From contig NC_053042.1 in NCBI RefSeq assembly GCF_003473485.1, positions 5,169,501-5,233,500 of the forward strand: DNA of 64,000 nucleotides. Reading direction: 5' to 3'. A program made the position numbers and the translations under genes. Positions 57,900 through 63,388 of this stretch are shown one piece after another. The stretch's first letter is position 1. Every line of letters begins with the position of its first letter. The DNA is from Medicago truncatula. Lineage: Eukaryota > Streptophyta > Magnoliopsida > Fabales > Fabaceae. The notes below the pieces were generated by a model. That model was not told the origin of the DNA and made no database searches. It was given only the letters and a program-made list of their open reading frames with translations.

Positions 57900-60800
57900 C
57901 TAAGCTCCAACAACTTCTTGAGCTTGTTTCGACTTCCCTTTACTTTTCAGAGTCTTCTTACCGACTGCAACCCCTTTGTCTTCCACTTCAATCCTAGCAA
58001 AGACTGGTTGAGGTTGAGCCATGACCTGACCACCCTCAAGTCCACCCCACTTGGTATCTCTCTACAATGCAAAACAACTTAAATCAAACACTATAACAGA
58101 ATTTGTGTGAGTGTGTGTGTAAGATAGCCAAGTTGAGCATATATTCTCCAACTCAAGCTCGGAGTAACAGGCGATAGTGCAATGGCAATAATTCTCACTG
58201 TCTCTAATATAATTACAAGGTCCTGCTCCAAGATCATAAGTGAAAATTCTTTATTAGGCATTTGCTTATCTTCAACACAAACGAAAAGAAGTGAGATATG
58301 GAATATGCTTATTATATTTGGTTAAGGATGAAAAACAAACTTCAATTGCTGATGACAATATATGAAAAGCAAATTGATTAATGTGAGAAAAGAAAAAGGA
58401 GTTTAGTATTTGGATTTAATTTGATCAAATATCAGGTAAAGATTTAGTGGAAACAAACCATTGAATCTATCTTTTATAATAATGTTACAAATATTATTGG
58501 CAAATAAAATACATTGATTAATCTAATGATGTTACTTTTTTGTTTAACGATATTAACTTTTATACCAACATTTTATTGTATGAAGTTTATGTAATATATG
58601 TTCGAGGATAATACCTTGGCAGCTGCTTCAGAAGCAGTACCTCCTTGCTTAAAGAGAGACCAAGGGGCACGCTCGTCCATATAGGAATTACCAGCATTAC
58701 CAATCTCCAGAACAGCCTCACAAGCTGATGTCAGGGAGAGATTTTCATAGTGCATATGAGCTTTATCAACCTACAAAATTGTAAATATTGATCAACCTTT
58801 GTGTTACAGGCAGCTCCCACAACTTATCAACAATGGTTGAAAGATGGATTTAAAACATATGAAGTTATTAGCAATTATAGAAACACAATTTAGAACACAA
58901 ACAAAGGGTCGGTTTGTGCTGTTCTATTGCAAAATATAATAAAAAACAAAAGTTCTAGTTATTTAATGTGATATGTTATAACACGAAACAAATACCTATT
59001 TCATTTTTATTAGGAATATAATAATGAAATAGAGTAGCATGAATACAATTTTCTGGGCAGGGCTCTCGCAGATAGAATTGTAACTAGCCTATAACAATCT
59101 ATATATCTAAGTTGAATACTATGTTTTTCTTCTTTTCATCTGTTTAGATTGTTTCATCCGGCGGCAGGGTAATTAAACACAAGACAAAATAGAAGGAACA
59201 GTTTGCATAACCTCAAACTGTTGCAAAAGACATGCTTTAAAATTTAGTACAGATATTACAGAAAAATTAGAGTTTCTTAGAGACTTTACCAGCCTCGCTA
59301 CATTGTCCTTGAATCCATTTCCTTCTGCAGCCGTAGTGGAATCCACTGCCAGTGTTGATTGGCAATTCTTTTTCAGAAGTCCTAGAGTCCTATTAAGAAG
59401 ATTTCCTGCCAAAATAGTGAAAGAGATTTCACATTAGAAATCATAGTAAAAATTCAAAAGTTAAAGCAATATGCTGTCAACGAATGAAGTACCAATTGTA
59501 TTGGGAAGATGTGCGTTTACAATATTGATGAAGCGTTCCTCTGAATAGTCCCCATCATTGCCAAATTCCACCTCTCTGAGGAAGAAGTATCTAACTGCAT
59601 CTGTCCCAAACTTACTAACCAAATCGTTTGGTTCAAGCGTATTTCCTAGTGATTTGCCCATCTTCATACCATCCTAACATTTTCAAAATAAAAAACATTG
59701 CTGCATGAAATAAAATTTAAATAAGAAACAGATTTAGAAAACTTTGCTTGGTCACATTTAGTTTATGGTCTTCACACCAACAATCAAATTACTATTACTA
59801 TTGTTGATGTTGAGTATAAATATAATTGTTTTCTGAGTTTAATAATACACCGATAATCTTAACAAGTTTACAAGAAGGTCCAATCATATACCCCCATCCA
59901 AACCACATTTTGACAAGATGGTAAAATATGATTGAACACTTGTATAAAACTTACTAACACTATTGACGTATAGTTATTTAGCTCTTATTTTCTAAGTAAT
60001 ACTTTTGAAGCAGTGCAGTAAAAAAGAAAACTATATAAAGCATTAAGTTAATTTAATAAACCAATATAAGTACTATTACTATACTTAAAGTTGAGTTTTT
60101 TCTGCCGTCATCTCAATGTTATTGAACTATTTATTTCAATAATAATAATTTATTAATATCATTATCAAGCATAAGAATGATAAAAAAAATGGCCTAGCTA
60201 TCAAAAAAAAAGGAGAAAGGCGTAATTTATCTCCCTTGCTTTGCTCAGATTTGACACTCAGCATTAATTTGGGCCAGTTCACTAAAAAAATGAACCGAAC
60301 CATGAACTGCAATGATCCAAACTGCAAACGAGTCAAACTGGTGACGCAGTTAAGAATCTAAGCATGTATACGTTTCCCATCTCATTATCCTGTTTGCTTT
60401 ATTGACACAATCATTACCCTGTTTCCTTGAATATTCAGAAATCATCGAATTTGATTTTTAATTAGAAATTTCAAATATATTAATATTGATATATTATTAC
60501 TGTTCACAATGGTTTTTATATTCACCAACAGTTCACCGCACAACTGCAGCGGCTTGGTTCAGTTCATATGAACCATATTTTCACTTTTCAGTTCAATATG
60601 CATGGTTGGTTCAGTTCACAGGTTAAAGAAGTTACTACTTGCTACCAAGTTACTCAAGAAGAAACATAAGATAATAAATAGGTCCGAGTACTAATACCTT
60701 TGTCAAGAATCCATGGCCATATACAATTTTGGGAAGGCTTAGCCCAGCAGACATTAGCATAGCTGGCCAATAAACGGCATGGAAACGTAGAATATCCTAC

Positions 60801-63388
60801 AGAGTAACAAAACCATTAATGAAATAATGAACTTGAATGCTTTGTGTAAGTAATAGGACTCCTAAGGGAAGAAGCTATATAATATTAGTAATTGATTATT
60901 TAATATATTATAAATTAGTAACTGTTACATGTGTAGTAGCTGTTATCTTCAGTCATAAAAGAAAGAAAACCAATGATTTATAACTATAAAGGGATGAACA
61001 AAACCATCACAAAAATACAGATGGATTTGGTGTGTTATTACTCAAGATGGAGAATGCCGAGTAGAAAAAGATTTTGACAGAACAAGTATGATAGCTTTTT
61101 CCTAGTATTTGGGATTTTGACTATAAGAGATAATAATGACAAGTGGATAAAAATGGTAGCAAAACGATAGAAAATAAAAAGGAATTATGACATCCTTCTA
61201 CCTTAACAAGTTAAGAGTACAGCAATTGTATATTTCTCACTTAAGAAAAGGGAAATGAAAAAATGTATGTTAAAAATAGACACGCGCGCAGAGAGTGAGA
61301 AAGAGAGAGAGAGATTCAAAAAAATAGGAAAGAAAAGAGAAGACATACCTTACCAATCAAGTGCAGTGTAGCTGGCCAACTTGAAGAAACGGTGTTTAGT
61401 AAATCAGGTTGCTCCTGGACCTGGTCATCAGCTAGTGCTGATATGTAGCTGCACATATAAAAAGAAAGGAAAATAAAGTGTTCAACAAGAGTTTAGTAAG
61501 AGAAAAATGAACTCCATATTCCTTTACCTCGTGTAAACGGAAACATGGCTGCACAAAATTTGGATTTTTATTCAAAATTTCCTCCAGTGACTTCTGATAT
61601 TTTGACAGTGCGAAAAAATAATTGTCCTCTTTCCTTGAAACACAAGGCTTAAGGTGGATCGGACAACAATTATTTTCAAGCAGTTCCTTCTCATCCTGCA
61701 CCAAATAGCAATACATTCTTCAAGTAAAAATATGAAACTAAGATGAGAACAATCTCAATCAAAATTTCCCATCATCAGATTGAGAGGCAGTTATCTATCT
61801 TCCTATTAAAGGATTGTAAATAGAACCAATTGAAGTTCTAGAAGCAAGTAAGCATGCCCTTCTAAGTAAAGACCTTGTACAATTTAAAAAGAAAAAATTG
61901 TCAGTATAAGAGTTAGAACCTCAAGTTAAAACTATCACCTTATATTCTTCACAGCTGACAGAATAAATTCCCTCATAATCAGCTCGGTAAATGTCACCAT
62001 TGGCAAGCACTCTCGAATAAAATTCCTTCACAACTGCTACATGCTTGCTATCCGTTGTTCTAATGAACTTATCATATGAAATATCTAGCTGCAATTACAA
62101 AATTCGTAAAAATGAAACACATCAACAAGAATATTTAACTTGAATAATTAAAATTTCGGTCCTCAAAATTTTAGGGTCAAGCAATTTGGTCCTCCATTTT
62201 ACGGTCCTATAAATCAAAGAAATTCAATCAATTGAAAACACTATTTACTAAAAGGAGAATGTTAACCAGTGCCCCCACGGCATTGGTTAAGCAGCTAAAA
62301 TAGGTAAAATTTTATTAAAAAGTGGTGTAATAATTAGTTAGTAAAAAGTAACAGTTTATGTTTCCAAGACAATTTTTCTACTTTTGGATTCCTTAACGAG
62401 TGTCCCGGAGGCATTGGTTAACAAGACCCTTACTAAAAATGCATCAAAAGTTCAAAACTACCGAAAGACCTAATGTTTTACTTGAATAATAGAATCTCTA
62501 AACTTGTGATGCTAAATTTGAAAAATGACTAAATTGACGGACATTGTTCACGTTAAGGGACTAAATAGCAATTTTGTAACTTTGAGGCACTAAATCAATG
62601 AACCTTTCAAAATGACTATAATGACGATTTACTACTTGAAAAAAAAAAAGCAAGGGTGGAAGTGGAATTACATCATTCCAAAGCGTCTTGTAAGCTTGTG
62701 AAATGAGATTGCAGTGGTCAGTAGGGGTGGAACCCTGAACAGTGGCAGCAGTTGCAATTTTCTCACCGTGTTCATCGGTGCCAGTAATGAATATAACTTT
62801 CTTTCCCAAAAGCCGCTGTCAAATTTCATATAACGAAATTAAAATCCCTAAGTTAGATTTTTTTTTTTTTAAGAAACCAAACTAACCCACGAAAGTTAGA
62901 TAATACTCCCTCCATCTCTAAATAACAGTCGTTTAAGGTTTGTACACGATTCTTAACAAAATGATTAATTGTGTTGATTTCAATAGCAAAATGAGTATCA
63001 TTTACTAAAGTTTTCATATTAATTGTAGTTAGTGGAGTAGATAAATTGGATGAAATTCAGGAAATAAGAGTATAACAGTCGGAAAAAAAAAAGTGACAAT
63101 TAGTTGGACAAATTTTGGTGAAATCATGAATAGGTACCTGAAAGCGAGCAATGGCATCGGCGGCGATGGTGGAATAGGGTTGACGTAGTAAAGAGGGGTT
63201 GTGATGACATAGGGTTCGTCGTCATTTGAAGGAGTGGGAGTGGCGCATTTGCAGAACAAAGCTGCTCTTGGAGAAGAAGGGAAATGGAAATAGGGTTTGT
63301 TGGATTTGAGGTGTGAAACATTGGAATTGGAACGGAGTGAAAGAATGGAGAGTGTGTTCTGTAACGAACAGTTCATTCTTACTGCCAT
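57900..63388 (-). pseudogene. Organellar methionyl-tRNA synthetase (OVA1 type), damaged copy
   Basis: Class I aminoacyl-tRNA synthetase that charges tRNA-Met in plastids and mitochondria. Exons on the minus strand: 63388..63138, 62815..62672, 62088..61939, 61695..61528, 61448..61349, 60796..60698, 59673..59493, 59405..59290, 58770..58615, 58222..about 58124 and 58061..57900, with good GT..AG sites for most. Recognisable parts are a Ser-rich transit peptide, [47 protein letters not shown] (KMSKS-type loop), [20 protein letters not shown] and DTKWGGLEGGQVMAQPQPVF. Three losses stand out: about 22 bases that should encode the HIGH-type motif after YYVN, with a frame change; a whole exon (about 42 residues, including the WFDALLGY region) between 61528 and 61448; and the stretch plus donor between QLGY and DTKWGGL. 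It could be a recent pseudogene or carry assembly errors. Confidence 0.8.
62263..62430. mobile_element. Small MITE in a MetRS intron
   Basis: Left end ttaaccagtgcccccacgg and right end tcccggaggcattggttaa are inverted repeats agreeing at most positions, about 168 bp apart, within the intron between exons 2 and 3 of the MetRS copy. Family not established. Confidence 0.45.

Follow-up and report, generated by a model that had tools for sequence, protein, structure and literature searches.

Introduction

How can a plant carry a broken gene for an essential enzyme? The question is raised by a locus of Medicago truncatula on the minus strand at 63388-57900 of the window, by which we mean the whole 64,000-nucleotide stretch of DNA analysed (C1:5,169,501-5,233,500, in a genome of 429,922,655 bases on 42 contigs). 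The locus holds an organellar-type methionyl-tRNA synthetase (MetRS) gene that carries three disabling deletions relative to an intact paralogue. We conclude, with a probability of about 0.93, that this window copy is a duplicated (unprocessed) pseudogene, whose parent on the same contig looks intact from its sequence. The name OVA1 is that used in the initial annotation of the window, which gives OVA1 as essential in Arabidopsis. Our literature search returned nothing on OVA1 as the Arabidopsis methionyl-tRNA synthetase and no Medicago truncatula MetRS title concerning this gene.

Results

Three deletions in the window copy

The minus strand of window positions 57000-64000 was inspected, and the lesions were sized by alignment to the intact paralogue. 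The window copy has 11 traceable exons, as opposed to 12 in the parent. Its features are as follows.

63138..63388, minus strand: exon 1 (N-terminal extension and start of the catalytic domain), thrown out of frame by the loss of 22 bp at 63179/63178, where the intact copy has HMGS
62672..62815, minus strand: exon 2, frame and AG/GT kept
61939..62088, minus strand: exon 3, frame and splice sites kept; bears C180S
61528..61695, minus strand: exon 4, frame and splice sites kept
61449..61527, minus strand: 79-nt remnant of introns 4 and 5, holding the 1035-bp deletion junction 61501/61500
61349..61448, minus strand: exon 6, with 6 bp more than its intact counterpart; taken alone, it stays in frame
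60698..60796, minus strand: exon 7, frame and splice sites kept
59493..59673, minus strand: exon 8, frame and splice sites kept; KMGKS at 59664-59650; bears A406P
59290..59405, minus strand: exon 9, frame and splice sites kept; bears P429A
58615..58770, minus strand: exon 10, frame and splice sites kept
58124..58222, minus strand: exon 11, from which a 44-bp deletion has taken the 3' end along with the GT donor
57900..58061, minus strand: exon 12, ending in the TAG stop that both copies have; it is 12 bp shorter than in the intact copy, without a frameshift

The first deletion takes 22 bp out of exon 1 at the 63179/63178 junction and shifts the frame. The eight codons that it hits encode APPHMGSA, i.e., the HIGH-type ATP-binding motif expected of a functional organellar MetRS is gone from the window copy. 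The second deletion, of 1035 bp at 61501/61500, removes the whole of exon 5 (125 nt, VQTWINSGLRDFSISRASVDWGIPVPSDKTQTIYVWFDALLG, the WFDALLG region) together with most of its two introns, and leaves the 79-nt remnant at 61527-61449 between exons 4 and 6. Read directly from the sequence, the enzyme frame carried into exon 6 gives L-H-I-S-T-S-stop. The third deletion, of 44 bp near 58127, strips exon 11 of its last bases and of the GT donor. The KMGKS sequence, a KMSKS-type loop, is present at 59664-59650.

All three lesions are where the initial annotation placed them; it described a HIGH-type motif lost through about 22 absent bases, an absent exon with the WFDALLGY region and 79 bases left in its place, a shift into a stop upon joining of the neighbouring exons, residues and a donor missing near 58124-58062, and an intact KMGKS. 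Its count of ten out of 11 exons with frame and splice sites kept has to be lowered to nine (exons 2-4, 6-10, and 12), the parent having 12 exons; exon 1 is frameshifted and exon 11 is devoid of its donor. The length differences of exon 6 (+6 bp) and exon 12 (-12 bp) relative to the intact copy are both in frame; that of exon 12 may have arisen in either copy. Aside from the lesions, the coding sequence is well kept. The shared final stop is the sole stop in the 534 gap-free codons out of 601 aligned, with the 67 gapped codons left out.

A complete copy near the other end of the contig

The genome was searched with the MetRS family PF09334 (36/36 candidates scored), with the gene's own DNA (best 40 of 1420), and with TIGR00398 metG (best 19 of 41). 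In the PF09334 search, 22 of the 27 matches fall in four clusters, namely C1:5.23 Mb (the window, four matches) and C1:55.71, C4:37.74, and C4:58.68 Mb (six matches each). The remaining five matches stand alone (C7:829642, C3:26472120, C4:63573499, C4:58691624, and C4:37364155). The 21 matches listed by the TIGR00398 search all lie within the same four clusters. The two C1 loci are regarded as organellar-type because they have DNA in common and the intact one resembles cyanobacterial MetRS, and no further organellar-type locus was present among the candidates scored in these searches. The loci at C4:37.74 and 58.68 Mb are presumably cytosolic.

The second organellar-type copy (C1:55,708,857-55,716,400) is located on the same contig about 50 Mb away, so that the two copies sit near opposite ends of it. 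With exon borders placed by hand from splice signals, this copy consists of 12 exons with AG/GT borders, which join into 1803 nt, or 600 codons plus a stop. Its product carries HMGS, WFDALLG, and KMGKS within one complete frame. It scores above the NCBIfam cut-offs for methionine--tRNA ligase (PRK12267, 609.1 versus 598 bits; TIGR00398, 520.3 versus 336.35) and matches solved MetRS chains, the best being the methionyl-tRNA synthetase 2csx (E 8.9e-131). The profile matches of this locus include positions 1-32, the start with the HIGH-type motif, and positions 213-257, the region of exon 5; neither is matched at the window locus.

Of 29 pattern-matched stretches, 15 encode a relative. The top eight are all cyanobacterial and 51-54% identical to the product of the intact copy, and the other seven are 39-48% identical. 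About 57 residues of the product precede the start of the bacterial match. The protein would be imported into plastids and mitochondria, as the probable working enzyme there. A search for a second OVA1-like locus had been proposed in the initial annotation, along with the idea that another copy serves the plant; the search found this complete copy, and its sequence favours that idea. A cytosolic MetRS retargeted as a replacement is not needed, the organellar-type copy being intact.

Two side observations concern these other loci. Intron 7 of the C1:55.71 Mb copy, its longest, contains a 746-bp stretch with no counterpart in the window copy (about 2666-3411 of L009, the 9.9-kb stretch around that copy). 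Matching inverted ends were seen by eye (CTCTGTTGTCAA ... TTGACAACAGAG), and the stretch is probably a transposable element. At C4:58.68 Mb, the open frame was given as 457 aa by the PF09334 search and 270 aa by the TIGR00398 search; in the extracted stretch L007 the 457-aa frame was not found, the longest frame there being 148 aa.

Conserved residues, deletion junctions, and the question of assembly errors

Conservation was judged against the 15 aligned bacterial homologues. His72 and Gly74 of the HIGH-type motif occur in all 15, and so does each of the exon-5 residues Tyr277, Val278, Trp279, Asp281, Ala282, and Leu283. At the C-terminal lesion, only Gly532 is well conserved (13/15). Since some of the residues lost from the window copy are also found in bacteria, the intact copy is taken as ancestral for the three disabling lesions. 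The two copies differ at 24 amino acids, three of them at sites where at least 13 of the 15 homologues agree. The window copy is the odd one at all three, with C180S (Cys in 15/15), A406P (Ala in 14/15), and P429A (Pro in 13/15).

Fifteen stretches of at least 10 bp are absent from the window copy, and six of these were checked for microhomology. Microhomology of 4 bp is present at the junctions of the 1035-, 44-, and 12-bp stretches and lacking at those of the 22-bp stretch and of two intron stretches (61 and 47 bp). In 20,000 trials with random breakpoints, 3.1% gave microhomology of at least 4 bp. This suggests end-joining repair or slippage at the junctions with microhomology.

These data bear on whether the window copy could be a second working gene, misassembled at the three lesions. 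The good state of the remaining coding sequence, with nothing but the final stop in its gap-free codons, would fit such a gene. However, three separate clean deletions would all need to be errors, two of the three disabling junctions have microhomology of a length that few random breakpoints reach, the window copy departs from the consensus at three conserved residues, and neither extracted stretch contains an N. We therefore consider assembly error very improbable and did not retain it as the principal explanation; the lesions are best read as those of a pseudogene.

The duplicated block

Because introns are common to both copies, the copying was DNA-based, and a retrocopy is ruled out. The homology starts about 230 bases past the stop and extends upstream, in interrupted pieces, beyond the end of the window to C1:5,237,070 and C1:55,728,085. 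Both blocks include a tRNA-Cys (GCA) gene, placed upstream of the MetRS copy with order and orientation preserved (2497-2570 of stretch L021 and 8844-8917 of stretch L020). Downstream, window positions 1-57672 gave no blastn match (E up to 1e-8) to the 20 kb that follow the stop of the intact copy. The short window stretches 751-957, 34421-34632, and 43884-44001 match the other side of the intact copy by blastn. When the outer flanks served as DNA queries, most hits were to repeats, and the block could not be traced further (best 39 of 5463 and best 39 of 5927 candidates).

Other observations were made within and next to the block. Just past the window end lies a decayed, seemingly protein-coding fragment (L021 1122-1567), related pieces of which flank the intact MetRS copy on both sides. 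Two stretches of about 190-200 bp in the window copy match elsewhere in the genome, one in intron 1 (63092-62896; at least 23 rows, 83-87% identity) and one in intron 2 (62443-62242; at least 14 rows, 85-92%). They overlap insertions of 227 and 185 bp, respectively, that the intact copy does not have, and resemble small transposons inserted after the duplication.

Divergence and selection

The two copies can be compared at 533 codons, which give a Ks of 0.0825 (0.054-0.114) and a Ka of 0.0212. A published study gives a whole-genome duplication (WGD) Ks of about 0.75 in Melilotus officinalis, which it places nearer to Medicago truncatula than the other species sampled there (PMC11025269). Measured against that value, a Ks of 0.083 makes the duplication of the MetRS gene much younger, and the WGD was rejected as its origin. 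The introns common to both copies show 13.2% mismatch (distance 0.145) over 3027 aligned bases with edges trimmed. Untrimmed, the mismatch is 12.4% over 3280 intron bases versus 3.4% over 1610 exon bases.

The pairwise omega over the 533 codons is 0.257 (bootstrap 0.14-0.44). By reasoning, neutral evolution of one copy ever since the duplication should have given at least 0.5, and since the observed value is lower, the window copy was probably under constraint during much of its existence. With the background omega set to 0.1, a simple two-rate calculation gives 0.74 (0.34-0.99) as the fraction of this time spent under constraint. The statement in the initial annotation that this was recently a working gene thus gains from the low omega, and is weakened in that gene conversion could also have lowered it.

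Neutral decay of the window copy from the moment of duplication would differ from this history in timing. The disabling lesions accord with it, and so does the omega of the first 57 codons, 0.515 with a wide bootstrap range (0.13-2.97). Omega for residues 58-600 is, however, 0.216 (0.11-0.40), and like the value for all compared codons it falls below the expected minimum. We hold decay from the outset to be unlikely, and prefer a period of constraint followed by loss.

Several observations weigh against the history proposed here. The 22-bp deletion has no microhomology. Ks (0.083) is below the intron distance (0.145), and synonymous divergence is uneven, with 4 changes in the 180 codons of exons 4 and 6-8 and 14.5 in the 129 codons of exons 1-2. 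Gene conversion or silent-site constraint could have distorted the dating, and gene conversion could have mimicked constraint by lowering omega. The mismatch by intron ranges from 0.03 to 0.33, these extremes resting on 32 and 60 aligned bases, and parts of the intron alignment are uncertain. Lastly, bacteria have the window residue more often than that of the intact copy at some variable sites (293, 469, 560, and 563); therefore, not all changes need fall on the window branch.

Remaining coding potential

Four splicing patterns of the window copy were simulated, and the ATG-initiated frames were listed. None of the patterns yields the continuous open frame of a working gene. The frame from the normal ATG has 132 codons in the three patterns that retain exon 1. 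The longest ATG frame begins within exon 7; its length is 215 codons, rising to 225 when exons 6 and 11 are skipped. No simulated frame holds an intact N-terminal half of the catalytic domain. Rescue by exon skipping was also considered and rejected. Skipping exon 6 along with the lost exon 5 would restore the frame locally, but exon 1 would still be shifted, and the enzyme frame contains no Met between the 1035-bp deletion and exon 7.

The window copy might still be useful, either through a truncated protein of 215-225 aa from exon 7 (KMGKS and the C-terminal part) or through a transcript or small RNAs influencing the intact copy. That the longest ATG frame begins in exon 7 in all four patterns speaks for a truncated protein, and constraint on the coding sequence during part of the history of the window copy would be in line with continued use. 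Yet the exon-7 frame is deep within the mRNA, behind the 132-codon frame in the three patterns keeping exon 1, its product would have neither the N-terminal catalytic half nor the N-terminal extension, and the constraint is accounted for by activity preceding the deletions. A remaining function is thus extremely unlikely, and the locus is best regarded as an ordinary, fairly recent pseudogene.

Discussion

The window locus shows features expected of an unprocessed pseudogene: a parent with an intact frame, retained introns and flank, and disabling lesions. Duplicated (unprocessed) pseudogenes make up 75% of pseudogenes in rice, according to PMC5187791. The window locus resembles this class, as described there, in its kept introns, its parent gene, its frameshifts, and its lost splice site. 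It shows no difference in kind, its coding sequence outside the lesions being well preserved. When compared with the organellar (OVA1-type) MetRS of plants, the C1:55.71 Mb copy is alike, as a bacterial-like class I MetRS with about 57 leading residues, HMGS, WFDALLG, and KMGKS, whereas the window copy is without the HIGH-type motif, exon 5, and the exon 11 donor.

The history of the pair probably ran as follows. A stretch with the whole gene, its introns, and the neighbouring tRNA-Cys gene would have been copied long after the legume whole-genome duplication, and the coding sequence of both copies would have been kept for a good part of the time since. The window copy would then have been disabled by three deletions, each sufficient alone, and the C1:55.71 Mb copy would have kept the role. 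We infer the timing of the deletions and end joining as the cause of two of them. A stronger version, in which both copies were under selection for much of the time after duplication, perhaps sharing dosage or compartment, and one was lost recently, seems to us unlikely. If it were true, the loss may be polymorphic among accessions, or the transcript of the dead copy may influence the working one.

Because the second copy is complete, a dead window copy would be tolerable provided that the other copy works, as its sequence leads us to expect. The apparent paradox of a broken gene for an essential enzyme is thereby removed. For annotators, gene models at the window locus are to be marked as pseudogene. 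For the study of duplicate-gene fate, the locus provides a roughly datable case of an organellar tRNA synthetase that probably existed in two copies for some time before one died.

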